From positions 1 to 64,000 of the forward strand of contig JAMYGW020000018.1 of the NCBI GenBank assembly GCA_025617375.2: 64,000 nucleotides of DNA, in the 5' to 3' direction. Origin of the DNA: Acarospora socialis (taxonomy: Eukaryota > Ascomycota > Lecanoromycetes > Acarosporales > Acarosporaceae). The position numbers were made by a program, and so were the translations under genes. This document shows positions 1 through 64,000 of this stretch, piece after piece (position 1 is the first letter of the stretch; each line of letters starts with the position of its first letter). The notes below the pieces were generated by a model. It worked only from the letters and a program-made list of their open reading frames with translations, ran no database searches and had not been told where the DNA came from.

Positions 1-146
1 CCTTACCTAACCCTAACCCTAACCCTAACCCTAACCCTAACCCTAACCCTAACCCTAACCCTAACCCTAACCCTAACCCTAACCCTAACCCTAACCCTAA
101 CCCTAACCCTAACCCTAACCCTAACCCTAACCCTAACCCTAACCCT
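1..146. repeat. Telomere repeat array (CCCTAA)n
   Basis: About 23 head-to-tail CCCTAA units run from base 5 or so to base 146. The first dozen bases are slightly degenerate. On the complementary strand this is TTAGGG, the usual telomere repeat of filamentous ascomycetes, oriented as expected for the left end of a chromosome. The array ends abruptly at 146 and AT-rich sequence follows directly. No telomere-linked helicase gene is recognisable next to it. Confidence 0.97.
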
Positions 147-147
147 A

Positions 148-3100
148 CTGAAAATAACATCATCATATCAATTTATTCTTTCTTCACAGCAGCTCAGAAC
201 TCTCTGTAGACAACTGATCTTCTGAAAGATTGAGTTCTCTAAGATTCTTTGACAGATTTCTTTCATCAAGATCTTGATTGAGACAATAGAAATAAGATTG
301 CTTGTCAAAGACTTTCTGCTCAATTCATCATAGATGTTGAAAGCATATATTCATGTGCTTCTGTGCTTGAGCACATCAGTGATGTACATATTGCACAGCT
401 GCATCATGATCAGACTTTAAAAGAAGATTTCTTTCAGTTAAAATCATCAGTGAATCTCATCAAGCACAACACACTAAGATGTCTGACAGAGAAGAAAGTT
501 CAGATAATTTGACTGCAGCAGAAAATCTAAAAGAAAGTGTCACAAATCATCAAGACACATTCTTGAACACTCATCTAAAAATCTTTAAATTTTGATGTAT
601 CTTCATAAGTTGAGATCAGATACTCATTTCAGATAATTTTAGCTGTTTCAAGTTCTTTTGCAGATCTACAAATTAGAGTGACATATTTTGTTTTGATGTA
701 TTATCTTTGAAGATGCACATATTGTTTAATACAACTCAATGATGATTAGAACTTAAGTTCATAGATTGAGTCAGACAGTCAACTCAATAGTCATGATGAT
801 CATGAGAAGACAGCTTCACTGATAAATGCTCAAGTAAGAATGTGTTTGAAGTCAGTCTTTTCTTGAAGTAAAAGAGATAGAACATCAATTGTCATGAATT
901 ATTCAATCAGCAATAACAGACAATCAAATACATAACAGAGTTCTGTCATATAAGCTGCTGTCTTAAAGAGTGAAGTATTTTCTTAATTCAACTTTGATTC
1001 TTCTTTTCATCAAGAGTTCTGAAATGATGTTGATACATGTTGAACTTATAGTTTACAATCTCATTCACAGTATAAGCTAACTTGAAAATGATTGTTGACT
1101 CTTCTGTTCATCAGTTGTTGACAAATGAATAATGAATATAGTTAATGTCTGAGTTCTTGATTGATCATACATTTAGTTCTTTTAACAGATTGCTTTGCTC
1201 AAACAAGAAAAATGTTGAAACTTGACTTCAAAACTTATAGAAATCTAAATTGTTCATTGCTTCAATGAGTCAATGTCTTCTTCAAAATCAAAATTCAGTC
1301 TCTTTTCTGACTTTAAACTTTTCTATGTGCTGTCAGTTCATTCAAAGCTGATGCAATTGATCAAATAGAATATCTAAATCAATCTCATGAATCTTCAAAC
1401 TCAGATAAAAGATGATATCTTGTCAATGTTTGTTGCACATCATCTCATGATGAAACATTTTCTTCAATAAGTAAATACTCTTCAAGATGAAACAAGCAGA
1501 ACATTGTTGAACTTGAAGATGTTAGCAAGTAAAAATCTTCTTTGAGCAATAACAGACTTTCTCAACATCTTCTGTATAATCAGATTGAAACTTTGTGATT
1601 ATATGATTTACATCTTCTTTCAGATTGTTGTTAATTGAATGTAATGAAATTTCATTGATATTATCATAGTCAATTCACAAAGATTCATCTTTCTCATTCA
1701 CAACAAGATCATCATTTTCAGCAGAGTCAGTCATCAAGATCTTTGAAGAATCTTCTATCTCAGATTCAGATGAATTTGAAGACTCTTCAACTTCTGACTC
1801 ATTATTTTGTTCAGAGAATGATGAGATAACAATAAGATTCTTCATTATTTGATCTTGATCTTTCAATTTCATCAATTCTATGCAATTCATACACAATCTC
1901 ACTTTTCTTAAATCTCATTGCTTGACAGATTTCAATATAACTCTCTTATTTAAAACATAATCAAAATTGTCTATCAGAGACTCTAAGATCATAAAAACAT
2001 CAGACTTGAAGTAAAGTCTTCAGTGAAAAATTCACTGATTAACTTCTAAAAGTATCTTCTTCAGAAAGCACTTAATTAAATATTTTCTCATCACTATCAG
2101 AAGATTATATGACATAATCTGAATAAGCAAGTCTTTCACTGCTTATTCTCACTTTTTAAGTATTCTTCTGCAAGTCTTTTTCTGTCAGTTTCATTCTTTC
2201 ACAATCTTGACAACTACATCTTGCAGCTTTCTGATCTCTTCTAAAAAGATATTTTTACTGACTGTTTGTTTTCAGCTTCTGTTTTTGCAGATGTATTTGT
2301 AAAATGTTTTGATGACATTGTTGATGACTTGACTTGCATATGTAAGATAGTCACTCAGCTCTTGCTGTCACTGATAGTGTTTCTTTTTTGATTGCTTGAC
2401 TATAAACTGAAGAGCTTTGTGAAGCATGTTGAAACAGTGATCTGCTATAACAATAGTTTTATTTGAGAAAAGAGCTGAAATATTACCTATCAACATAGCT
2501 GTAGTGAAATGATTGTGACAATTGCTGACAGCTTGCAAACATGTAATGAAAGAAAGAAGACATTCTGTCTGAGTGAATCAAGCTATTATAAGGTTTGGTG
2601 AACAAAGATCTCATAATTGTTGATTATGTTGAGACTCTTTGTTGTACTTTGAATTTAGTTTAGTGTTGAATTCTTGAGACTCATTACTTTGATCTCAATA
2701 TCACATCAATTTTTGCCCATACTGTCATCTCTGTTACTTGCAATTGAAGTTAACTTTATTTTGTTCAACATACTGTCTTTTTATGTCATGACATGATACA
2801 TATTCTTAACTTTGATAAACAATCTTTTCTTCTCTTTCTGAGTGCTCTCAAGAAAATCTTTGAACATCAAGAATATGAACATCATGATGATTGTGACTGT
2901 GATTAAAAGTTAAATATGCTGTCTTTTTATGACATGATATGATAAGTCTTCTCAGTTTTGATTGCTGACTTTTTATATCATGACATGATAAGTTCACTCA
3001 GATTTGATTGCTGTCAAATCATGTCAAATCATGTTGTTAATCTTCAAGCTTGATTGCTGATTTTTCTTGTCATGACATGTTAAGTTTTCTCAATCTTGAT

Positions 3101-3650
3101 GAACAACTCTTTATTCTGATCTTCTTCACATTTATGACAAAATATTTGATGTCAAAGTCTGATGCATCATCAAGATCTTAACTGTGCTCAAAGACTCTCA
3201 AGTGATTCAGATTATCTGATCATCAAGTTTTTAATTATGATCAAAGATTTTTGAGTCATCAAGAAAATCATTGTTATTTATATCTTTCACATACACAAGT
3301 GCTTGACTGCAGTTAAGAGCTTCTGCATCTTTGAGAGCTGATCTGCAGTCAAAAGTGTTGATTCTGTCAAATGAGTATTGTGCATTCATCTTGATCATGA
3401 TCAAGATCATTGAGTGTAACAGATGCATTGTAAGAATGATTCAAATGAGTGCACAATAGTGCAGAATTCTTCATGTTTCAACTGAAGCTTTGATTGAGTT
3501 GGGTGATAATGATGCTTTTGATCAATGTGAAATTCTCTGGTGTAAGCAACATTAGTCATCAAATTGTTTCAAATGATTATGAATGTTTGCTCACACTTTC
3601 TCACTAGTGTATGTTGAATGGATCCATCTGAAATATTAAGGTTTTGCTAG
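148..3650. other. AT-rich, CpG/CpC/GpG-depleted subtelomeric block
   Basis: This stretch is AT-rich and has almost no CpG, CpC or GpG, while CpA, TpG, TpC and GpA are very common. No intact gene is present. Short open stretches, for example an acidic, serine-rich 75-codon frame on the minus strand at 1675-1902, look like eroded coding sequence, but I cannot name them. The block ends sharply near 3,650, where CpG-containing sequence resumes inside a polyketide synthase remnant. The composition fits heavy repeat-induced C-to-T mutation with an unusual dinucleotide preference. Confidence 0.8.
2918..3101. repeat. 46-base tandem repeat, four units
   Basis: The word GCTG followed by a T-rich tract recurs at 2918, 2964, 3010 and 3056, an exact 46-base period. 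The first two and the last unit share a T-rich tract, the near-palindromic core TCATGACATG or a close variant, a CTCA-type tract, and a TTGAT end. The third unit is more diverged. A further diverged relative lies near 2771-2815. The units have drifted by point changes but not by indels within the array, suggesting one old amplification followed by mutation. Confidence 0.75.
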
Positions 3651-3669
3651 TGAAAGGTTAAATTTTCGC

Positions 3670-5372
3670 CGTGATCCTTTAAAGATCCGTCCGCGCATAG
3701 TGACAGGGATTGATGCGACTTACAAGAGGCAAGGGTGTGGACGTGATCATGAACTCGCTCGCAGGTGACGCACTTAGAGTGACATGGAATTGTATTGCAC
3801 CTTTCGGGCGCTTCATTGAACTGGGAAAGCGAGATTTCCTCAACAACACACGTCTAGAGATGGGACAGTTCGCGAGGAATGTTAGCTTTGCTGCCGTGGA
3901 CTTCATCAGTTTGGTGAAAGACAGGTTTGAGGAGACGTCGAAGATGTGGGCTGATATCATGGCGCTGGTGCGGGAAGGAGCCATCAAGCCTCCTCAGCCC
4001 ATCACCACTTACTCCATGTCCGAGGTTGAGAAGGCTCTGCGAACAATGCAGTCCGGGAAGCATGTTGGTAAACTAGTCACGGTGGCAAGACCAAATGAGA
4101 TCGTCAGGGTTTGACTCCGCCTGGCACTGTTAAGGAGCGAAAGCTAATTGACTAGGCTATTCCTCGAGACATGAGCAGCACTCTGCTGCGTCCAGACGTA
4201 TCGTACTTACTTGTTGGTGGGCTTGGCGGTCTCGGGCGAGCGATGGCATTATGGATGATGCAACATGGCGCGAGAAATCTGCTATTTGCCTCTCGGAGCG
4301 GCCTAGCCAAGCAGAGCGCCAGGGAAGTGGTATCCCAGCTTCAAGACCAAGGGGCGAATGTTGCCGTGTTCAACTGTGATATCGGTGACAGCGAACAAGT
4401 GGCGCATATGATAGCTGAAAGCGAAAAGACCATGCCTCCAATCCGCGGCGTAATTCAAGGTGCCATGATCCTCCGGGTAAGGCTTTTCGCATGTCTCCTA
4501 CGTGAAAGAATCACAACGCTAACCAGCACAGGATGCCCTCTTCCAAAGCCTCACACTCTCAGATTACCTTACTACCATCCGCCCCAAAGTTCACGGCACC
4601 CTCAACCTCCACACCTCCCTTGCCCACCAACCCCTCGACTTCTTCAAGCGGCATTCTCGGCAACCCCAGCCAAGCTGCCTACGCCGCAGCCTCCACCTAC
4701 CTTGACGCCTTCGCGGCCTACCGCAACAGCCTTAATCTCCCCGCCGTCAGCTTCGACCTCGGCGTCATTGATTCCGTTGGCTACGTCGCTGAGAACGAGG
4801 ATCTCAAGAAAGCTCTCGAGAAACAAGGCTTCATTCCCATTCGCGAAAATGAGCTCATGGCGATGCTCAAATCCGCCATCCTCAACCCGCGCCGCACCGC
4901 TGGCTCCGCGCAAACCGTCACCGGCCTCGGTAAGTGGAAAGAAGACGGCGCCCGGCCGGCCTTCGCGTACCCCCCTTTCTCGCATTTCCGCCGCATAGCC
5001 ACGCAAACTGCCTCGACCACTGCCGGCGACTTCCCTGTTAGCAGCACAGCCGGCGCCGCGCGCGCCGTTCTCCGCGCCGCCACCTCCGTCGAGGGGACCG
5101 CAGCACAAATTGCAGATATCCTAGTTGCGAAGATTGCGGCCTTGCTCATGATCCCCGTCGAGGATATCAGTCCTACGAAGCCGGTTACCGATTACGGGAT
5201 TGACTCGCTCATGGCGGTGGAGATGCGGAACTGGATCTTTAGGGAGATGGATGCCACAGTGCCAATCCTGGAGTTGATGGGGAGTGGCAACATACTGGGG
5301 TTGGCGGCCAGGATTATGAGAAGAAGCAGGTTGGTCGATGAGAAGGTTATGAAAGAGGAGAGAGAAAGCTGA
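3670..5372 (+). pseudogene. Fossil 3' end of a highly reducing polyketide synthase
   Basis: Remnants appear in the order of a fungal highly reducing PKS C terminus: the distal half of an enoylreductase (about 3,710-4,110, with the GKGVDVIMNSLAGD motif), a ketoreductase (about 4,180-4,930, with the GGLGGLGRA nucleotide-binding motif and a GILGNPSQAAYAAA stretch), and an acyl-carrier domain (about 5,090-5,330, with the phosphopantetheine site YGIDSLMAVEMRNW). A short intron with canonical ends survives in the ketoreductase part. The upstream ketosynthase, acyltransferase, dehydratase and first half of the enoylreductase are absent; homology stops where the AT-rich block begins. The remnant is broken in roughly three places and cannot make a functional enzyme. 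The product it once helped make cannot be inferred. Confidence 0.85.
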
Positions 5373-6603
5373 GTGGTCGAGTCTTCCTTGACAAGGTGAG
5401 ATTTGAATCAGTTGCTCGGTGGCGAAGTCGCATGATGTATGCCGCAGCTTCACGAACAAAGCTAGTCGTACCAGCCAGATCTGGCGCATAAATCCCAGTG
5501 AGTGGCACCATAGCTTAATGAAATGATCCTTGAAGGTGTGTGGTTCTTGAATGTATGTTCCAACGACTGCCACCTCGGTAACGGGCTGCCAAACATTAGA
5601 TTGTGTAGGGCTGGGAACCAAGACTTTAGGTGACAGCGAAAGGAAGATGAATACCAAGTATGCATTAATCACACCACTTTTGTGTGGAACTGACGGGGTC
5701 GAAGGCGGTGAACCCTGTTCCATGGCAAGACAGCTGATTCAGCTACTCCAATTTGTTTTTCAACGCGCAACGAAGGCACAGCACTGAGATCCTGCCGCGT
5801 GAGGGCTCGAAAGGCAAAGGATTCCAAAGAGTTGGCGAGTTGATATCACGACTACAGTTGTTCCTACAACAGCCAGTTGATATTTCAAGGACCAAGAGCA
5901 TTCATCTTAGATCTTTTACATAAGAGTTAGTTTGACCGGCAGCTGTGTTGATGAGGCGGAGATTACTAGTTAAAACGTTCAGGCCATAGCTTGCTCATTA
6001 CCCTTCTTTTCGATCTCAATACCTAATCTACTTGTGTATTGTGGGAGATAGCCAGTGTATAAGTGCATGTAGAGAAAAGCGATGTCAGATCGCTTTCTAG
6101 AGGTCTTTGGGCCTAGTTCCATAGTTACGGCAACTACAGGTGCTGTCTCTACAGTATTAGATACAGCCTCGACTCTTTTGAAGGGACCTATTGAAACTAC
6201 TGAAAGGTAAAAGGAGACTCGTGCTATACTGCCACCTATCTAGTGGAACTAGCACCGTCAATGTTGACTGCAGTTGATGTGGATTGTGAAAGTAATCATT
6301 CAGTATATCCTCAGAGTATATCAGTTGTGGGCAACCCCTGATGCTAGGCCTAAGCTAAGACAATAAAAGCAGCTAGAACACCGCTCGTTCCTACACAATG
6401 CAAATTTCAGTACAGGCTTGCTTGTCCATTCTGATACACACAAGTGATATCTTTACTTCTGCTTGTCATGAATGAAGAAGTTAGAGAAGATAAGAAGCAA
6501 CCAAAGTGAGAAAGTGGTGAGTTTTGCTTCATGATGAGTGTGCTGACAAGTTTCATTCAGAGAAATCATGAGTTCAGCTCATGTCAACTGGCAAAGTCCT
6601 TAA
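5373..6603. other. Intergenic, no gene recognised
   Basis: This is the downstream flank of the polyketide synthase fossil. Open frames here are short and unconvincing on both strands. The part at about 6,420-6,620 is poor in CpG, CpC and GpG, like a short mild version of the AT-rich blocks, and may be a small eroded repeat. Confidence 0.5.
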
Positions 6604-53786: not shown

Positions 53787-54960
53787 GGTGGTTGGCACGA
53801 GAGCTGGTGTGGGATGGGATGTCATGGGATGGGATTGGGTGGCGTACCGAATGTTGGGTTTGGGGGTGTCCATTTCGCTAGTGCTACGTCGATTGCGTCG
53901 GGGTGAAGGGTTCTCTGGGTCTCTCTGGCACATAACTACCATACAGACATGTGAATAGTTTTGGTGAGGTAGCTAGCTAGCGGGTCGGCGTCTGCAAGGC
54001 AGATATGGGACGATGCTTGGCGCTGGACGGCTTTCGTGGGTCAAGAACGTTTTGCCAATGGCTTTTGATCCACTATCCGGACTGGAAACCCGGCTGGCAA
54101 AAGTGGTACGCTTACCTAGTGCTGTACTCAAATCTGGCGGGCTTTACCGCAGAGTAACTTCCGTACCTTGACCTACTAGTAACTACGTAGTGACATTTAA
54201 AACTCATTTACACCATATGCGATTGGATGGTAAATTGTGCAGTGCTATTGCAAGCCCAAGGAGTCGACTTCAGATCACCTCAAAATATGCATCAATTCTC
54301 TACAAATTTCAAACTATACAACAATTTCATGTATCAAGTTGAGTGTCCTTCGTAGCTATAAAGCTGCACGAGGACAATAACTTGAAGGTTATCAACATCT
54401 ACAGTTCAGATCCATCTCCATCAGCTTTGTTCCTGTTTCTTGTTCTTATCTTCTGCTTTCTTTGCTCATCGTTGTCTCCATCTTCATCTCAGTGTGCAGT
54501 CTCATCCTTATCTTGATCTTCATCTCCATCATTCCCCCAACATTTATATTTAACACGGCTCTACCCTTCGGGCAGGAATTTGGGCCTCTTTCCTCCTCAC
54601 TTCTGTTCAAAATCCACTTACCTCAACTCTCAACACTTTGGCTACCTCGGTACGAAGAGAAGTACCACCACTTCAGCGCTTATCCAGCCAATCAATATAA
54701 TGGTCTCTGTAGGAAGGCCCTACAGAGCCAAGTTCACAAGTGTCACACTACCTTTGAGTAATCGAAAACGAGTTTGGATGCTCTGAAGTACCTTTGATGC
54801 ATAAGTTGTACTGTGGTGCACGCAAACTATCAGATTGAGCTTTGATAGGCTTGGTGAAACTTTGAGTTGTCGTAAGCCGTTGTGGTGAAATACTGATTAT
54901 GTGGTGCCATGAATCTCAGGATGTCTCAGGACAGGATGTCAGGACAGAACCTGCTAACCA
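53787..54960. other. Gene-to-AT-block transition, no gene recognised
   Basis: CpG-containing sequence gives way to AT-rich sequence between about 54,180 and 54,960. The part at 54,400-54,560 is a pyrimidine-rich tract of TCATC/TCTTCATC-like words. No coding frame is convincing. The last bases show duplicated CAGGATGTC words (about 54,917-54,942). Confidence 0.5.
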
Positions 54961-55159
54961 ACTTAGACATGAAGAAGGAGATTATGCAGAACTAAATTCA
55001 TAGATAGAAAGCTAGAATTTAGACTGTGAATTAGAATCAGATTAACAATAATTCTACTCATTATTATTGTGAAGATAGAGCATGAACAGAAAAAGAAAAA
55101 TGTATATAACTACAACATATCATATAGAAACTTGTAGACATTAATAGAACAATTTACTA

Positions 55160-57010
55160 TATAAACTACATACAAAATGAATCAAATTCTGTCTTTCAGT
55201 CTCATAATTGCACCTGAAGTTCTCAAAGACTTTCAGAAAGTTTGCAATTCAATTTTTCAAGAGCATTTAATCAAACTCTATAAAAATGAAGAAGTCAGTA
55301 ACAAGAAAACAGAAAGATAAAGACTTCTAGACTATGTTTTTAGTCAGAAATATGTTTTCATCACAGAAATTAGCAAGACAAACTGCATCATTCTTAACTG
55401 TGTTCATCATCACAAGAAGACTCAAAACAGTCAGTGACTGATGAAGAACAAAAGAAAGAAAAAATAGACATTTGTCAAGCAGAAAAACTGCAAGTATTTG
55501 ATCTATATATCTGTTAAAGAGATCTCTCATAGTTAAAGAAGAAGAACATGACTTATTGACATTACAGATGACAGTCACAATCATTCTTTCATGTTTAATT
55601 CATTTCAATATTTTTCTCATCTTTCTCAAAAGTCTGAATTCAATAGAATCATGCAACTGATCTATACACACTGTGCTATGTCAATGTTCTATGTATAGTC
55701 AGCTTGAATACTCAATCTTAACAATTTAAACATAAATAGAAAGAAGTTTTATAACTTAATATGCTCAAAAGAAATCAAAACAAAAACAGAGAAAGTGAAT
55801 ATGCTACTTATCAGTTTAGTTCTGCAACAATTTCATGTTTAACTTCTTGAAAAGTATGAAATAGATTTTCTTACTCAGAAAAAAAACAGCTCAAATTGTT
55901 CAGCAGATCTTCTTCTGCTCAATGAAGTAGATAATTTTAGCTAGATATTTTGTTAACAATTGAATGCTGAAAGTGAATGCAACATTCAATACAAATAAGC
56001 TTCACTTATTTCTTTTTGTCATCATTAACATCATCAACACTGATTTAACATTTTTCATTGCTTTCTTTCTTATAATCTTCAAATTCTTCAAGTTCTTCAC
56101 ATTTGTCAAGAAACAAATGCAGTTTCTTATGTAATATGACTGTTCTGAGTCTAGAATTGTTGTGAAAGATCAGATCAAAGATTTAATAATCTTTATGATT
56201 CAGATGAAGAAACAATGATGATGAGATGAAAAAGAAGAAGAAAAAGAAGAAGAAAAAAACTGAGTTATTCTGCAACTGTATGAGCAACATGTCATTTAAA
56301 ACATAAGAAAATGAGTGCTTCAATCAGAAAAATATAACAAAGAGAAGTATAACAAACTTACTGATTATATATGAAATTATGTAAAGTTTAAATCTATGTC
56401 TGAGATTGAACAATGATGAGAACAACTATTCATGAAGTTGAAGATTGTAAAATAAAACTATCTTTTTGAGAATTGAGTTTCTAAAGAACATCAGTTTGTT
56501 AAAATATACATTAAGAGATATTCAAATTTTGATGTCAACTTCACTCAGTGTGTTGAAAGCTATCATAACATCATTAAGAAAAGTCTTACTTGACAGCTTT
56601 CTGTCTTGAAAGTATGCACTAAATTGTTAAATCAGTTTAATAAACTTACTTAAAGACTTGTAGAAGAAGAAGATCATAGTTAAATCAATATATTTTATTT
56701 TATTGACAGAAAGATCTTTCAAATCATGCTGAATTGCATTATTCACTATGTTCTAGCTCTTCTTGCTTCAAAGTGAAAGCAGATAAAGACATAAGCATCT
56801 TAAATCAATAAGAAGAAAAAGAAGAAATCAGAGAAATCTGAATGTTTGTTAATATGTGAACTATTCATAAAATATAACTTATCTTGTTGTCACTGAATGT
56901 ATTCAGCAATTTCAGAAGACATTGTTGAGAAGTGTGGTGTTCTAGCTGCTTTTATAGTCTTAGTTGAAACTAGTGTCAGAAATTGCTCATTACTCATATA
57001 GTTTGTGTGA
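55160..57010 (+). mobile_element. Eroded MULE-type DNA transposon (tentative)
   Basis: One plus-strand frame can be followed from about 56,510 to 57,000, interrupted by several stops. It contains VESYHNIIKKSLT, LVEEEDHS and KIFQIMLNCIIHYVLALLAS, then CELFIKYNLSCCH. The order of a VE-x-x-H-x-x-(I/L)-K stretch, a helical region, and a C-x6..8-(L)-x-CxH cluster resembles the end of Mutator-like transposases with their SWIM zinc finger. The N-terminal part (from about 55,160) is too eroded to assign. Terminal inverted repeats were not found. The family call is by motif order only. Confidence 0.45.
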
Positions 57011-57224
57011 CAGAACATGTGAATTGACAATCTCTACAATTCACATTGATCATGATTAAGTCAATGATGTACATTTCACTAAATAGACAGTTAGTTAGCA
57101 GTATAGCACAAATATTCTTTTTATCTTTCAATAAATTCAATAAATTATGAGCTCAGATTAGCAAAAAGCTTTTTAGAGAAAGTGCATACTGTTCTAGTGT
57201 TTTGACAGCTTAATATGAGAACTT

Positions 57225-57450
57225 AAAGATTGAGCAAAACAAACATTATTGATTATCAATACAGAGCTCTAAGATTGAGCAAAAACAACATTCTTGACAG
57301 CTTGATACAAAATTAAAACAAACACTCTTGATTATCAATACAGAACTTAAAGATTGAGCAAAATAACATTCTCAACACTCAATACAGAGCTTTAAGATTG
57401 AGCAAAACAAGACTTACTGACAACTTGATACAATGCTCAATGATTGAGCA
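57225..57450. repeat. Short tandem-like array with an AAGATTGAGC core
   Basis: AAGATTGAGC recurs at 57225, 57271, 57350 and 57394, with the variant ATGATTGAGC at 57440. Spacings are 46, 79, 44 and 46 bases. Between cores lie CAATACAGAGCT or CTTGATACA words. The array sits just upstream of the Copia gag remnant and could belong to that element's LTR or leader. Confidence 0.65.
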
Positions 57451-57559
57451 AACAAGCACACATACTTCTTCTTTCTCTTATTTACATTATCTTCTTCTGT
57501 ACATCTTAATACTTCATTTTATTCATTTTTTATATTATGTGCTGACTGTCATCAAAAGC

Positions 57560-58751
57560 TACATTATGAATTTTAACAACTTTTTCACAAAGCAACAACT
57601 CATTTCAATTCTCAGTCACAAGAACTGCAATCAATGATTTACTCTCATGAGAAAATGACTGATAAATGAAGATCTGTAATACATCATTGAGATCTCAGTG
57701 ATTAATACTTCTGTCAGTAGCTTCTTCTTTTTACTTAGCTATCTTGACTTCAAAAGTCAGAAGTCTGACACAAAAACTCTGTATTAACTCATCATCTATA
57801 TCAGTATAAATGATCAGAAATACATTACAGACAAGATTAATGTAAAGAATGCTTGAGATGTCTTGAAGTTCAAATACAAGAAGAAACTGCAGATCACTGA
57901 AAGATAATATTTGATGAAATTTATTGAATACAAAATATCAACAAATGTATTCATCAATGAAGCATAAACACATCTCAGTAAGCTGAACAGAAAAATTGCT
58001 GCAACTCAGTTTGATATAACTGATCTATTTAAGTCTGAGCAACAATTTTAGATACTTCTTTAAGCATTATTTAAGAATTACACAGTAATTCACAACACAA
58101 TCAACATTTAAAACATTTCAAACATCAAGAGAAGTCTGCAGAAGCTTCAAGAGAAAAAGATACAATTAAAGACTGTTGAGACTGTCTTATAAACAGATTG
58201 ACATAAAGAGAAAAATCTGACACATTTATATCAGCATGATGTGAAATATCATTATTGAAGATCATTAAGCTCTGACAATGACTGTTCTTCTCAGCATAAA
58301 TCAGTTAAATGTTTTCTCTGCTGTAATTTTCATCATATTTGAGACTGTGAATATCTTTTCACTGCTCATAAGAACATTGAGTTAAGAAAGTTATTTGTTT
58401 CAATTGCAATCAAGTCAGTCAGAAAGTCAGACAAGTTGTCTGCAAACAACTTACATTATAAAGACAAGATAAGATTCAAGTACAAAGACAGAAAGTATAG
58501 AGCTTTTGATGCTAAAACTAAGAAAAACAATGACTTATTCTCATCTGAGTTCAATGCAGAGAAAAACAATGAGATTGTCACTTTGTTCAAGAAAGCTATC
58601 AGTAAAATATTTAGCTTTAAATGAATTGTGAATTTTAAATGCTTTACACACATAATTAATCAATGTCAACTCTTCAGTGACTCTTTGATACACATACAGT
58701 GTCAAAGAATTAAAGTTGAAAGAAAACACTTATACTCTCACTACTGTAAAG
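57560..58751 (+). mobile_element. Fossil Ty1/Copia retrotransposon, gag to start of protease
   Basis: Copia-type gag remains (UBN2-like; for example THLSKLNRKIAATQFDITDL near 57,970) are followed by a CCHC-like zinc knuckle near 58,310-58,355, a charged linker, and what looks like the beginning of the Copia aspartic protease near 58,625. The element is broken in many places and heavily mutated, so it is old. It stops exactly where the Gypsy LTR begins at 58,752, which shows that the Gypsy element inserted into it. The remainder of its pol region should lie beyond the window. Confidence 0.65.
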
Positions 58752-59075
58752 TGTTACAGTCAAGTCAGAATAAGCTAAAAGCAAACTGATGTGTATATGT
58801 GAAGAGTGTATGTTCAGAGAATATCTAAATAATAATTATGTAACAGCACAACAGCTTGACAGTGAGCAGATGAGCTGAGAACTTGATTTCTCAATGTTGA
58901 GATGATGAGCAGACTCACTATATAGTAAAATTGTTTTTCTTATGAAAATAATCATGTTCAACTTAAATAACTATCTAAGAGTTAAAGATCAGAATCATTT
59001 CAGATCAACTGTTATATCAATAAGCACAAACTCTTAATTCTACATATCTGAGAAAGTTCAGATTAGAATGTTACA
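58752..59075 (+). repeat. 5' LTR of the Gypsy chromovirus fossil
   Basis: The 324-base segment begins TGTTACA and ends TGTTACA, giving the usual TG...CA termini, and lies immediately upstream of the gag remains. A TATA-like CTATATAG lies near 58,919. The five bases before it, TAAAG, would be the target-site duplicate; the other copy lies outside the window. Confidence 0.6.
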
Positions 59076-62000
59076 CTTTAAACATTCTTACAATATAACA
59101 AGTATGATGTCTGACACACAGAAGAACATCTCAATCTTGTTTTTGAGATAAGCTCAAGTAAACTCATCTTTATCATCTACTTTAGATAGAATGATGACAC
59201 AATTAGTGATAATGTCAGTTCAGATCATATAACTATCTCTGAATACATCTAAGATACAGATATCAGATATTTTTGATGAAGAATAAGAAAAGTTGTGAGT
59301 CTTTGTGACTAAATTCAATCTGTATATTGAATTTAATCAATTAAAGTTTCAAATTGATCAAGAGAAGACACTATTTGCAATAATCTATCTCATGAATGCA
59401 GTCTTCAACTGAGTTGACTTCAAGCTGCATGAGTTTCTAGAAAAGAAGTACAAAGAATGCAACACAGATGTGAAGTCTATGTTTAATGACTATAAATGAT
59501 TTAAAAAAGAACTCAGAAAAGTCTTCAGAGTGATTAATGAAGAGAGAGCAGCAAAGAAACAAGTTTATATTTTACAACAGAGTGAATCAGCAGCAGTATA
59601 TGTCACAGAGTTTCAGTGATTAGTGATACTTATCAGATAAAATGATGAAGCACTTATCTATCAGTACTATTGTGAGTTGAGAAAGTTCATCAAAGACAAA
59701 ATAGTTTAAATAAAACAATCAGACAATCTTCAGAGAATGATTAATCTGAGTATCAATATTAACAGTCATCAATGAAAATGACAGATGAAACAAAAAAAAT
59801 ATTGAATGTTATCTATGATAGAAGATCAAGAAGAAAGCTTTCAATCATGAACAAAATGATATGTTTCATCAATAAAACATAGAGAAACAAATTCTATATA
59901 TCTTAATATAATTAAGAAGCATCATCAGAAGTCATAAAAAACTAAATAAGTGAAGTCTGAATATCAGATAGAGTGATTCACTAAGTCTTAGATGACATTG
60001 TGAAACAAAATATAAATATGTTACAACTGCAGAAAACTCAAATATCTTGTTCAAGAATGCAACAGATCTCAGATGAAAAGAAAAAATATTGCAGTGATAG
60101 TCAAGAAAAATACATGCATAGTGCACAACACTCTCAGCTAAACAGTCTGCTACAATGACATGTGCAGAGTACATATAAACATAAAAAACAAAGTCAGATA
60201 ATATCTTCAGAAACTATACAAAGACATAAGAGACAGATACAACACAATGAATCAATTAATCTACAAAAAAGAACTAACTATTTTTACAAAAGAATATATC
60301 AAGAAGAACATTCTTGATGTTAAGATTGAAGAGATCAATACTTGAGAAACTCAGATAGAAGAAAACTACAGTGATAACATCTGACAAGCACTGAATTTGA
60401 ATGTGAATCAAAAGAAGATCAATAAATAAAAAGTCAATATAAGACTAAAGAAAGCATATCAGCACTTAGAGAATCAACACAAGACATTGAAAGAAGACAA
60501 GCTTCAGTTTGAGAAACAAGAACTTAAACAAGAAATACAAACTTAAAAATGAAAAGCAAAATGCAAAAGTGCAGAAGAAAAAAAGACATATAATCAGCTA
60601 AATGAGCTGATGATAGCTGTTAAAGACAAATGTTTCAGCAGTGATGATGCAGTATTGCTGAAATTTCTTGTGTGAAAAACAAAGAGTCACAAAATTGAGA
60701 TACACTTACTCAAAGAATATATTACACAGAATAAAGACAGATGAATCTTCAGTGAAGAATATATATTATCTGAATTTCTGCAAAGAATAAAAGTCTTTGA
60801 GAGTCAATTGCAGATGAAATACAATCAGTATGAACTCTGACTACATTTGAAAAGACACATTGAGCAGTACAGTCTAAAGTATGCAAATTTTATGATTGAA
60901 AGAAAATCAAGATGATTTCAGAAACTTTGAAGACAAACTGAACAATTAAATGAGTCAAAAAATAAAAAGCTCTCTTAACAAGACTAGAGAACAAGAAGCT
61001 AGCAGCATCTCAAAGACATGACAATGATCATCAAATATGAATCAAAATCACAATCAATAAACATCAAATCAACACATTAATGAATTTTGAAGTGAACAGT
61101 AACATTATGAACTGCAAAATAGTCAATCTGTTGAAATTAGAGACACAGTGAGCATGCTGTTCATTTAACATACAAATAATAAATGAAATCATTGAAAGAA
61201 TCAACAAGAAAGTCTGTGTGAAAGTCTCAATTCTTGAAAACTCACAAGAGATAATGTTTGATGTTATGAAATCAATCAAATATGATACAATGCTAGAGAT
61301 GTCTTGATTGCACAAAAAGAATTCAAGAATCAATTGAATTACAAAAGAGATATACACAATTAAAAACACATATGAGATTCTCAAACAATCAAAGATGAGC
61401 TTATCAAAACATAAGTCATAAAATCATAAAATATTGCTATTAAACAGAAAGCAATCTAAGTAAATGTCATTATACTTAATGAGCAAGAATCAACTCAAGA
61501 AAGTTAAAACTTATCTTGACAAGAATCTCAAGAAAGAATTCATAAAATCATTAAAATCATCAGCAGAATATTCAATTCTGTTTGTATCAAAGAAGAATGA
61601 AAAAAAACAACTATGTATTAACTACAGACAACTCAACAAGATAACTCACTGAGACAGTTATCTCTTATTGTTGATAAAAGAGTTGCAAGATTAATTAAAC
61701 AAGATTAAGTGATTCACAAGTTTAGATCTTAAGAATGTCTACTATTAAGTCAAAATGAAGAAAGATGAAGAATGAAAAACAGCATTTCACACAAGATATA
61801 AACATTATAAGTATACTGTTATGTCATTTGAGCTAAAAAATGCTTCAGTCATTTTTCAGAGATTAATTAACAACATATTAAGAGAATATCTCAATGATTT
61901 TGTAATCACATATCTTAACAATATTCTGATATATTCAGAAGATCTTGAAGAGCACTGTGAGCATGTGTGCAAGATACTGACAAGACTCAATGAGTGAGTT

Positions 62001-64000
62001 CTGTACATGAAAAAGTCAAAAAGCAGATTTAAGATCAAGAAAGTTGAGTTTTTAAACTATATAATTTAATCTGAACAGATCAAGAAGAATTTAAAGAAAA
62101 CAGAAGCAGTCAGAAATTAATTAATATTAAAATGAATCAAGAAAGTACAGATCTTTCTAAAATTAACAAACTACTATTAAAAGTTTGTATCAAACTATGC
62201 AAGAATTGCAGAATCACTAATGTGTTTGACACACAAAAACAAAAAATAACATTGAAATAAGAAGCAGAAGAATGTGTTTCACATATTAAAGAAAAGTTTT
62301 AGCAAAACAACACATCTGAGAATACTCAATTCAGCATATAAGAAAATACTGAAAATTAATGCTTCAGATTTTGCAGTAAAAGTATGTCTATATTAAATTG
62401 AGAAAGAACAACAGAAACTCATAGTGTATCAATTTAGAAAGTTATCAGAACTCAAGAAAAGATATGAGATTCATGATAAGAAACTTCTTGTGATAGTGAA
62501 GACATTGCAAGATTAAAGATCTTATCTTACAGAAATAAACAAGTCAATTCAGATCTATATGAATCATAAGAATCTGAGAAACTTTGCAATGACAAAACAA
62601 CTCAATTGACAACAAATTCATTGAATGAAGCAGTTAACAGACTATGAATTTTAAATTCATTACAGAAAAAATAATGAGAATAATAAAGCAGATATCTTGA
62701 GCAGACAATCTGATTATGAAGATGTACAGACAGTATACATTGAAATTTTAAGCAAAGATGACAGAGAAATTCTCACAAAAAACTTAACAGCAATACATAA
62801 AATAGAGTAAGCTTTCTTGACAGACAAAGAACTCATTAAAATATGTCACTACAGCAAAATTGATGAGTATTTAAAAGTCAAATACACAGAGAATCTTGTG
62901 CAGAGAAGATGCAATGTTAATAATTTTAGAAATTGAGTCATCAAGATGATCACTGTGTGTGATTCATGCTGAAGAAATAAGATCAATTAAGATAAATGAT
63001 ATAACAAAGTAACACAACTAAACACATCAGATACATCATGAAAGTCAGTTATCATGAACTTCATTATGAAGTTATCATTATCAAAGAACTCAGCATGAAG
63101 AGTGAAATTTAACAGTATATTAATCATAGTAAACAAATTAATCAAGTATACAATGTTCATTTCATTCAGAGAAACTGCAACAGCATCAGTATTGATGTAC
63201 ATTATACTGCAGAAATTAATTAACAATTATGAACTATCAAAAGAATTTATCATCAATAGAGACAAACTGTTTACAAGCAAATTTTGAGAAACACTTACAG
63301 CAGAACTCAGAATAAAACATAAAATGTTAATGATATATCATTTACAGACAGATGAGTAAAGCAAATGAATGAATCAGACAGTAAAGACATACTTGAGACA
63401 CTACATCAATAAAAGTCAAGATGACTGAGTATGACTGTTATCAACAGCACAATTTGCATACAACAACACTAAGAATGAGATCACAGAAGAAATGTCTTTC
63501 TATATGAATTATAACTACAATTTGAAGATATAACAAGATCTCAAAAAACATAAATTACAAAGTCAGAAAGCAATTTTGAACATCACTCAGATGAAGAAAC
63601 TGCATCAAGATCTAATGAGATGAATTGAACAGCAGATGAAACAAATGATAAAGACAAAATAATTTGAAGAAGAAAAAAAGATATACTTAAAAATGAACAA
63701 TATACAAATCAAAGAAAAAAGCAAGAAGCTGAAAAACAGAAGTCATTGAATCATTCAAGATTATATGAAACATCAAGAAATTAAGTTATGAGCTAGACTT
63801 ACTTAAGAAAATGAAAATACACTCAGTATTTCATGCATTCATGTTACAGCACTGCAATCAATTCATATCACTTCAAATCATTGAAACATCTGTCAAATTT
63901 AACAAAGAATATAAAGTCAAGAACATTTTAAAAAAGAAAATGATTAGTGAGAAAGTTCACTATCTCATAAAATGAAAAGATTACAATATCTCAGAAAATA
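58752..64000 (+). mobile_element. Fossil Ty3/Gypsy chromovirus, truncated by window end
   Basis: In order on the plus strand: LTR (58,752-59,075), gag (about 59,300-59,900), a zinc knuckle near 60,015-60,060, a long eroded stretch, reverse transcriptase (about 61,460-62,060, including INYRQLNKITH), RNase H (about 62,330-62,700), integrase (about 62,850-63,650) and a C-terminal chromodomain (about 63,895-64,000). The domain order RT-RH-IN-chromodomain defines a chromovirus of the Ty3/Gypsy superfamily. The element is broken in very many places and cannot be active. The heavy C-to-T type erosion implies an old insertion, but one younger than the Copia element it interrupts. Confidence 0.8.

Follow-up and report, generated by a model that had tools for sequence, protein, structure and literature searches.

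Erosion of CpC and CpG with Relative Sparing of CpA in the Mobile DNA of Acarospora socialis

In the mobile DNA of the fungus Acarospora socialis, the target preference is the reverse of that of textbook fungal repeat mutation: cytosines change to thymine before C or G and only rarely before A. The direction of the changes, their occurrence on both strands, and the rule on the 3′ base are shown, and the erosion is present in several unrelated mobile elements and absent from gene DNA.

Results and Discussion

Composition of the Eroded Blocks

The window, i.e., the whole stretch of 64,000 nucleotides that was analysed, starts with a telomere array (CCCTAA)n at positions 6–147 (+ strand, 23.7 copies, 100% match), which is CpC-rich yet uneroded, the erosion beginning directly after position 147. 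Dinucleotide counts delimit a left, subtelomeric eroded block (148–3650), a gene block that serves as control (12590–53786), and a right eroded block (54961–64000), which extends in the contig to about C18:83500. In the right block, the full counts give 0 CpG, 1 CpC, and 2 GpG, while 183 CpG and 365 CpC+GpG are expected from the base composition; the rho values are 1.50 for CpA, 1.42 for TpC/GpA, 1.06 for GpC, and 0.62 for TpA. The left block has 0 CpG, 4 CpC, and 7 GpG, with rho values of 1.62 for CpA and 0.48 for TpA, and the gene block is normal (CpC 0.93, CpG 0.97, CpA 1.09). The initial annotation had described CpG, CpC, and GpG as almost gone from the AT-rich blocks, and CpA, TpC, GpA, and GpC as common there, which the counts bear out: CpA is undepleted and the gene block has no CpC/GpG deficit. 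Its zero for CpC and GpG stands as near-zero but not as an exact value, and its (CpA+TpG)/(ApC+GpT) ratio of 2–3 is replaced by 1.58 and 1.88 for the two blocks.

At the left edge (3650), the eroded and gene-block states meet within about 100 bases. At the right edge, partial depletion is seen from about 54720 and full erosion from about 54980, the switch again occurring within about 100 bases. The right block is an insertion of about 28.8 kb bounded by 43-bp inverted ends, and full erosion is confined inside it. The terminal inverted repeat at 54919–54961 (+) differs from its partner at C18:83641–83683 (L009:9641–9683) at three positions, all C-to-T/G-to-A at CpG or GpG, and a 10-bp direct repeat, CATGAATCTC, lies on either side of the insertion, at distances of 1 and 2 bases from the inverted-repeat ends. 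In the window, the insertion comprises the end portion of an inverted-repeat element (54921–56922, +), whose copies on C3 and C5 (about 76% identical) are eroded too, a 1830-bp repeat (56922–58752, +) with 40 further long genome matches of 82–87% identity, a lower bound because 40 of 774 candidates were scored, and eroded retroelement sequence (58750–64000, +). The latter recurs at other contig ends, with long matches of about 79–84% to L008, L009, L010, L011, L013, L016, L017, L020, and L023, and includes a reverse transcriptase (RT) remnant at 61584–62060 (+) that is homologous to the RVT_1 copies L047–L061. Our reading of the RT motif suggests a Ty3/Gypsy-like element.

In the left block, positions 2259–3706 show a 90.7% match to the beginning of contig C10 (L019) and positions 2309–3514 one of 87.7% to L010, while no long match to 148–2258 was found among the loci compared. 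Erosion stops near the repeat end at the window's blocks and at L011 and L013, and extends beyond the stretch homologous to the window at L016, L019, L065, and L066. Edges near repeat ends may reflect a trigger by homology between copies, and methylation of mobile DNA could produce them as well.

Extent in the Genome

The erosion is confirmed, and further eroded loci are spread over the genome. Among 116 non-telomeric 1-kb tiles with GC <0.40, taken from twenty 10-kb loci and the window, 91 lack CpG altogether and have no more than 12 CpC+GpG; pooled (91 kb), they hold 0 CpG and 165 CpC+GpG, the absence of CpG having been a selection criterion for these tiles but not for the window's two blocks. 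The remaining 25 tiles lie at edges, are eroded in part, or consist of mitochondrial-like DNA. Erosion was also found in 3 of 20 stretches of 700 bases at round-number positions on C1–C12. Uneroded AT-rich DNA with normal CpC is present at the starts of C1 and C15 and in parts of C5, C9, and C12; these stretches seem to be mitochondrial, judging by their look and normal CpC (by the sequence itself for C1). The statement in the initial annotation that standard RIP indices would call such blocks unmutated agrees with the present data, as only 3 of the 91 eroded tiles pass the TpA/ApT threshold (>0.89) and none passes that of the substrate index (<1.03).

Target Preference in Young Copies

The cytosines that mutate were identified in LINE-like RT fragments, 20 of 37 RVT_1 rows (714–753 bases) being used, with a natural intact copy as the reference for the polarity of the changes. 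C-to-T changes are found at 36 of 42 CpC and 6 of 6 CpG sites, compared to 6 of 132 CpA and 7 of 91 CpT sites (CpS 42/48 vs CpW 13/223, Fisher p=3e-31). Counted per cell over the 20 copies, the changes are 28/114 for CpG, 129/798 for CpC, 8/1729 for CpT, and 9/2501 for CpA, with 8/14255 for transversions, and the minimum numbers of changes per site on the tree are 1.83, 2.05, 0.088, and 0.068 for the same four contexts. CpA and CpT decay is accordingly slower than that of CpC and CpG by a factor of roughly 20–45. These results uphold the proposed rule, under which a C on either strand mutates when its 3′ neighbour is C or G, and the transitions between young repeat copies, sorted by 3′ neighbour, are not mainly at CpA.

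The eight least changed copies differ pairwise at 91 C/T positions, and all 91 are at CpC or CpG (63 CC/TC, 28 CG/TG). Over the series of copies, CpC+GpG declines from 43 to 13; CpA+TpG, by comparison, remains at 131–134 and TpA at 52–56. The load per copy ranges from 1 to 27 CpC/CpG changes, both strands are affected in a mixed order along the copies, and the continuing action is seen on copies that are 95–100% identical. Among the changes private to one of the 20 copies (CpC 6, CpA 4, CpT 6), the raw contrast is gone. We attribute this to most CpC sites having changed more than once, 28 of the 36 variable CpC sites requiring more than one change on the tree.

At the trinucleotide level, changes are found at 8/10 GCC, 11/11 TCC, 7/8 CCC, and 10/13 ACC sites, compared to 2/24 CCA, 3/23 TCT, and no TCA sites. 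The CpC+CpG changes per cell are 0.105, 0.216, 0.227, and 0.158 for 5′ A, C, G, and T, respectively, i.e., a two-fold dependence on the 5′ base, which speaks against a requirement for a 5′ T of the basidiomycete TpCpG type. A rule of C preceded by C is rejected by the CCA sites and by a simulated GpC of 1.61 (1.06 observed), and CpG-only decay by the fact that CpC makes up 129 of the 157 CpC+CpG events.

Some observations fit RIP less well. Young repeated LINE copies with only 1–4 changes exist, so that each round is gentler than in Neurospora RIP or the process has just started on these copies. Long one-strand runs sometimes follow a single RIP cycle; the changes here are instead intermingled on the strands, without such runs.

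Simulations were started from gene-block sequence. The model with C mutating before C or G and with CpW at 1/30 (one run, rounds set by hand) gave a GC of 0.288, CpA of 1.61, TpA of 0.63, and TpC of 1.46, the observed values being 0.284, 1.50, 0.62, and 1.42. Classical CpA RIP, CpG-only decay, and uniform C-to-T change failed to fit in one run per model, the rounds again being set by hand.

Older Families and Stop Codons

The sparing of CpA and CpT is only relative, their rate being about 1/20 to 1/45 of that of the preferred targets. In the old 1830-bp family (ti/tv = 35.7), CpA/TpA and CpT/TpT are the commonest C/T differences; in 15 copies of it, the adjacent column pairs are TG/CA 68, GT/AC 22, and AT/GC 15. 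The contrast is weaker for the Gypsy-like copies: with the divergent L045 as reference, the values per cell are 0.53 for CpC, 0.53 for CpG, 0.21 for CpA, and 0.27 for CpT, and with L047, L054, or L055 they are 0.49–0.52 for CpC, 0.22–0.25 for CpA, and 0.16–0.18 for CpT. We attribute the weaker contrast to the 21–29% difference between L045 and the eroded copies and to eroded references mixing old TG/CA sites into CpA. Close Gypsy-like copies, compared without polarity, show per-site values of 0.29–0.56 for CpC, 0.05–0.08 for CpA, and 0.04–0.08 for CpT.

Among 150 listed RVT_1 matches, 127 contain in-frame stops; these are TGA in 418 cases, TAA in 60, and TAG in 21, with 3 of the TGA on the probably organellar contig C16. 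The RT copy at C8:223–699 (L061), with a GC of 0.27 the most AT-rich of those compared, has four TAA stops and no TGA, which we read as late CpA/CpT decay.

Methyltransferase Genes

The genome encodes RID-, DIM-2-, and DNMT5-like methyltransferases as open genes. The RID-like gene carries a PPC motif (SPPCQVFS); its RID/Masc1-type identity is our reading of the alignment, no match being named RID. The DIM-2-like protein has many relatives named Dim-2, and its best PDB chain is 9bap (E 4.7e-200), deposited as DNA (cytosine-5-)-methyltransferase; we take this chain to be Neurospora DIM-2. The initial annotation had proposed a check for RID, DIM-2, and DIM-5 homologues; the first two have like genes, while for DIM-5 the single Pre-SET (DIM-5-type) match, at C6:791872–792210, is a candidate.

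Proposed Mechanism and Alternatives

The explanation that we moderately favor is a RIP-like, methyltransferase-driven hypermutation with a preference for CpG and CpC and a weak targeting of CpA and CpT. We infer a methyltransferase because the context is on the 3′ side with little 5′ dependence, as expected for such enzymes and not for APOBEC-type deaminases, and because the genome carries RID-, DIM-2-, and DNMT5-like genes. The enzyme would be a C5-DNA-methyltransferase similar to RID/DIM-2 but preferring C/G instead of A/T on the 3′ side. It would act on either strand of mobile, repeated DNA and lead to C-to-T change before C or G, slightly faster at CpG than at CpC, and would target CpA and CpT roughly 20- to 45-fold more weakly. 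CpG would mostly become TpG or CpA, CCA/CCT would become TCA/TCT, and a TGG codon would turn into a TGA stop; with no CpC or CpG left, the slow CpA/CpT decay would go on. The process may, we infer, be RIP in the strict sense, i.e., premeiotic, homology-triggered, and RID-dependent. We regard as evenly balanced the narrower proposal of a distinct RIP form in a lichen-forming lineage, invisible to the indices, in which a RID- or DIM-2-type enzyme would have an inverted 3′ preference (C/G) and would hold mobile DNA in check.

A possible but rather doubtful alternative is slow decay, in which mobile DNA is methylated at CpG/CpC in vegetative nuclei and 5-methylcytosine deaminates spontaneously, with no premeiotic, homology-triggered mutation. 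It predicts the same sequence contexts, and the graded loads without an all-or-none jump, the intermingled strands, and the existence of DIM-2- and DNMT5-like genes are consistent with it. On the other hand, CpC changes per cell are about 290-fold the transversions per site, far above the methyl-CpG excess in mammals of roughly 30-fold, and CpG saturation is complete, with none left in the window's two blocks or in the tiles chosen for it.

It is unlikely that two mutators are at work, namely, ordinary methyl-CpG decay, e.g., via the DNMT5-like enzyme, and a separate CpC-specific pathway. CpG does go before CpC (CpG is 0 and CpC+GpG 0–24 in the 15 Gypsy-like copies that are eroded), and the contexts differ in detail, residual CpC being mostly ACCA/ACCT (118 of 158 residual NCCN), but the youngest copies are changed in both contexts together and in nothing else, and the CpG and CpC rates are within a factor of about 1.5.

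Classical CpA RIP followed by other change, or plain AT drift, would suit blocks that are AT-rich and repeated in a genome with RIP-type genes, but is highly improbable given the CpA excess and TpA depletion of the blocks, the opposite or flat dinucleotide profiles of the CpA-type and uniform C-to-T simulations (the graded CpA model, run to GC 0.05, being comparable only in direction), and the almost untouched CpA of the young LINE-like family, for which it is refuted. An origin in deaminase activity or DNA damage (APOBEC-like, UV) would account for abundant C-to-T changes but is equally improbable, as such agents act by the 5′ neighbour and CCA, TCT, and TCA are largely spared while GCC, TCC, CCC, and ACC are changed.

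Comparison with Known Systems

The favored RIP-like process shares with RIP of Neurospora and other Pezizomycotina the C:G to T:A transitions on both strands of repeated mobile DNA, the sparing of genes, and the presence of RID and DIM-2 homologues, and differs in that the target is CpG/CpC and not CpA. In a survey of 1,239 fungi, CpA preference is described as common to RIP-like defences (PMC12543289), and in Monilinia CpC-to-TpT double mutations are reported inside CpA-type RIP (PMC8959702). The CpG-to-TpG change is common to the present process and CpG-type RIP (Aspergillus nidulans MATE, Tuber melanosporum, and basidiomycetes including Microbotryum TpCpG); here, in contrast, CpC changes almost as fast as CpG, and a 5′ T is unnecessary. 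A. nidulans and Tuber mutate CpA too, and the relevant sections of PMC2621366 and PMC4352252 name no CpC component. In Ascobolus, MIP relies on methyltransferases (Masc1/Masc2) from the same families, likewise directed at repeats, but is described as methylating without mutating (PMC4352252).

For Rhizoctonia solani AG8, the reported whole-genome distances between heterozygous C-to-T SNPs are 214 bp for CpC, 370 for CpG, 422 for CpA, and 491 for CpT, so that CpC ranks first of the four by this measure, which takes no account of site number; the authors stress CpG and give TGA as the commonest stop codon in genes (PMC4014442). That fungus is a basidiomycete with genes and repeats affected alike, whereas gene DNA is spared here. 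Coccidioides repeats are known to be depleted in CpG. A 2022 Coccidioides review has the words "CpG and CpC" once, and if it describes the loss of both, Coccidioides may be the nearest precedent (PMC9409882). The literature search, covering parts of the sources, found no report of CpC+CpG erosion with CpA spared; PMC9409882 and PMC3017866 mention CpC.

Conclusions

Indices based on CpA are in common use for scoring RIP (e.g., PMC3828140, PMC7882544), and they call fully eroded DNA of this fungus untouched. If the proposed reading is true, genomes scored RIP-free by them would need rescoring. The pattern also has a bearing on studies that survey genome defence among lichen fungi. Gene prediction is also affected, since inactivated copies carry mostly TGA, not TAA/TAG, stops. 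A natural series of young copies with another target offers a handle on what in RID/DIM-2 sets the adjacent base, the specificity differences between homologous enzymes being mappable by swaps, and bears on whether the mutation passes through 5-methylcytosine.

Dinucleotide Loss in the Window

All dinucleotides were tabulated in the left block (148-3650), the right block (54961-64000), and the gene block (12590-53786), the last serving as control. The right block holds 0 CpG, 1 CpC, and 2 GpG, vs ~183 CpG and ~365 CpC+GpG expected from its base composition, and the left block 0, 4, and 7, respectively. In these eroded blocks, CpA/TpG (observed/expected ratio 1.50 right, 1.62 left) and TpC/GpA (1.42 and 1.56) are over-represented, TpA is under-represented (0.62 and 0.48), and GpC is neutral (1.06 right). 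The gene block is unremarkable (CpC 0.93, CpG 0.97, CpA 1.09), and the CpC-rich telomere array adjoining the left block is uneroded. The full counts agree with the initial annotation, which had described CpG, CpC, and GpG as nearly absent, and CpA as common, across both AT-rich blocks; its (CpA+TpG)/(ApC+GpT) ratio of 2-3, however, was too high, the true values being 1.58 (right) and 1.88 (left).

The right block forms the leftmost part of a single insertion, delimited by 43-bp inverted repeats (54919-54961 and C18:83641-83683). The two repeats differ at 3 positions, each a C-to-T or G-to-A change within CpG or GpG. The 10-base word CATGAATCTC is present in both flanks, and such inverted ends with a flanking repeat of 10 bases resemble those of Mutator-like DNA transposons. 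The insertion contains 2-kb, 1.83-kb, and Gypsy-like repeats. Full erosion begins ~60 bases inward of its left end and stops ~180 bases inward of its right end, CpC/CpG being partly thinned outside it from ~54720. In the left block and at loci L011 and L013, erosion stops at most ~150 bases from the homology end; at L016, L019, L065, and L066 it extends past the stretch homologous to the window.

Sequence Context in Young Repeat Copies

The RVT_1 genome search listed 150 of at least 151 matches, with 150 of 435 candidates scored. One young family among them is assigned by Pfam to RVT_1 and appears, in our reading of the sequence, to be LINE-like. We aligned 20 of its 37 listed rows of 714-753 bases, intact and broken copies together, which share 95-100% identity. 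As the number of changes per copy rises, CpC+GpG falls from 43 to 13, with CpA+TpG at 131-134 and TpA at 52-56 throughout.

Polarised against the natural intact copy L029, with both strands pooled, C-to-T changes occur at 36/42 CpC and 6/6 CpG sites vs 6/132 CpA and 7/91 CpT sites, bearing out the dependence on the 3′ neighbour proposed initially. Only 2/24 CCA sites are changed, so that the base 3′ of C governs rather than the 5′ base. The rate is nonetheless about halved where the 5′ base is A, and ACCA/ACCT make up 118/158 of the residual NCCN in saturated DNA. Per cell, the 20 copies show C-to-T at 28/114 CpG, 129/798 CpC, 8/1729 CpT, and 9/2501 CpA, with transversions at 8/14255. Because changes common to several copies may be inherited, minimum changes were also counted on a tree: 86 at CpC (42 sites), 11 at CpG (6), 9 at CpA (132), and 8 at CpT (91). 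The eight least changed copies show 91 C/T differences in pairwise comparison, every one of them of the type CC/TC or CG/TG. Single-copy changes show no contrast in raw numbers (CpC 6, CpT 6, CpA 4), which fits repeated mutation of most CpC sites.

The youngest copies (L025-L032) are CpG-poor, with 1-3 CpG per 753 bases at 36% GC, and are not CpC-poor; the active element may be adapted to the mutator. Among the matches listed, young copies are mostly grouped, one cluster per contig (C1, 2.65-2.80 Mb; C2, 1.47-1.50 Mb; C4, 1.99-2.00 Mb; C5, 1.54-1.59 Mb; C6, 0.65-0.69 Mb; C7, 1.32-1.36 Mb; C9, 1.25 Mb; C10, 187-265 kb; C14, 11-85 kb), and these clusters may mark centromeres.

Older Copies and Simulations

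For the 1830-bp repeat we aligned 15 copies, the window's (56922-58752) and 14 of at least 40 other long matches. The alignment has 587 C/T or A/G dimorphic columns and 6 with a transversion. TG and CA occur together in 68 adjacent column pairs (436 CA, 427 TG, 154 TA, 3 others), vs 22 and 15 for the mirror controls GT/AC and AT/GC; such a pair is the scar of a CpG mutated on either strand. The commonest differences are CpA/TpA and CpT/TpT, slow decay at CpA and CpT persisting after CpC and CpG have run out. Of 17 Gypsy-like reverse transcriptase copies fetched, 15 are eroded, with 0 CpG and still 0-24 CpC+GpG, indicating that CpG was lost before CpC. Their CpC/CpA contrast is no more than two- to threefold against any one eroded copy or against a GC-richer relative, and larger between close copies.

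Simulations were started from gene-block sequence, with one run per model and rounds set by hand. Targeting CpC/CpG, with CpA/CpT at one thirtieth, gives GC 0.288, CpA 1.61, TpA 0.63, TpC 1.46, and GpC 1.04. These values approach those of the right block (0.284, 1.50, 0.62, 1.42, and 1.06, respectively); omitting CpA/CpT decay gives GC 0.351, CpA 1.78, and TpA 0.40. Models targeting CpA, CpG only, all C uniformly, or by a 5′ rule produced outcomes of a different kind.

In-frame stops agree with CpC/CpG erosion: TGA 418, TAA 60, and TAG 21 in the 127 of 150 listed RVT_1 rows that have stops (three of the TGA lying on C16, probably organellar), and 53, 16, and 6 in the 13 of 17 DDE_1 rows that have them. 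The first 3000 bases of C14 (L023:1-3000; GC ~15%, no CpC, GpG, or CpG, few CpT/CpA) may represent the final stage of slow decay at CpA/CpT, or else the core of a centromere.

Extent in the Genome

The window belongs to a 108-kb contig (C18); the genome comprises 38 contigs and 31.1 Mb. Twenty 10-kb loci, a biased sample because 15 of them are contig starts, gave with the window 259 countable 1-kb tiles, of which 116 have GC <0.40 and no telomere array. Of these, 91 are eroded (0 CpG, ≤12 CpC+GpG), summing to 165 CpC+GpG vs 14,883 CpA+TpG in 91 kb; the remaining 25 are edges, partial erosion, and mitochondrial-like DNA. Erosion also appears in 3/20 700-base stretches at round-number positions on C1-C12. 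With the customary thresholds quoted in PMC3828140, TpA/ApT flags 3/91 eroded tiles and the substrate index 0/91, so standard RIP indices overlook the erosion, as anticipated.

Other AT-rich DNA has near-normal CpC. C1:1-3600 (L010) is mitochondrial-like, with tRNA-like stretches by eye, and adjoins a CCCTAA array (3453-3598) followed by eroded subtelomere, a junction reflecting either telomere capture or an assembly chimera. C15:1-10000 (L024) and C16:102853-103620 (L064) are likewise AT-rich with near-normal CpC, and the latter carries a motif resembling that of a group II intron reverse transcriptase; C15 and C16 are therefore probably organellar. On C4 (L013:1-5811), an internal telomere array (5673-5811) has ~5.6 kb of GC 40-55% outside it, and sequence also precedes the arrays of C9 (L018, ~663), C12 (L021, ~474), and C13 (L022, ~56). 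C6 opens with ~5 kb (L015:1-5000) that read N in the stored genome.

Methyltransferases and Mechanism

Three methyltransferase genes were found in the genome. The DIM-2-like gene on C3 has DUF7893 and methylase domains, with BAH just under cut-off (top PDB chain 9bap, E 4.7e-200). The RID/Masc1-like gene on C2 has an intact motif, SPPCQVFS; the corresponding residues in homologues from Aaosphaeria and Bipolaris read SPPCCYWS. The third, on C8, has a methylase frame followed by an SNF2 frame and is presumably DNMT5-like. Among the matches listed, the RID- and DIM-2-like proteins have their nearest species-named counterparts in Pleopsidium flavum, of the Acarosporaceae (55% and 62%, respectively), which points to a related and probably lichen-forming source for the window; other database proteins reach 73% and 85%. 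Of the homologues sought on the initial annotation's suggestion, RID and DIM-2 thus have counterparts, and the one Pre-SET match may be DIM-5.

The changes run from C to T on both strands under a 3′-base rule, affect repeated mobile elements, spare gene DNA, and are ongoing. The decisive role of the 3′ base and the small influence of the 5′ base suggest that a methyltransferase would make or mark the target cytosine. A RIP-like, methyltransferase-driven mutator preferring CpC/CpG is, we think, the probable explanation. Slow spontaneous decay of 5mC would account for the graded loads between copies and the intermingled changes on the two strands, which keep it in consideration; however, CpC changes are ~290 times as frequent per site as transversions, favoring an active mutator and making spontaneous decay the less likely of the two.

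In the accessible portions of PMC4352252, PMC2621366, and PMC12543289, ascomycete RIP centres on CpA; CpT or CpG are additional targets or, in Tuber and A. nidulans repeats, the leading ones. Basidiomycete RIP-like forms are described as targeting CpG or TpCpG. In A. socialis repeats, by contrast, CpC and CpG are mutated and CpA is spared. The literature searched, as far as its text was accessible, contains no report of joint CpG and CpC mutation with CpA spared, but a Coccidioides review has the words "CpG and CpC". We therefore make only the modest claim that this erosion is a new form of RIP-like mutation.
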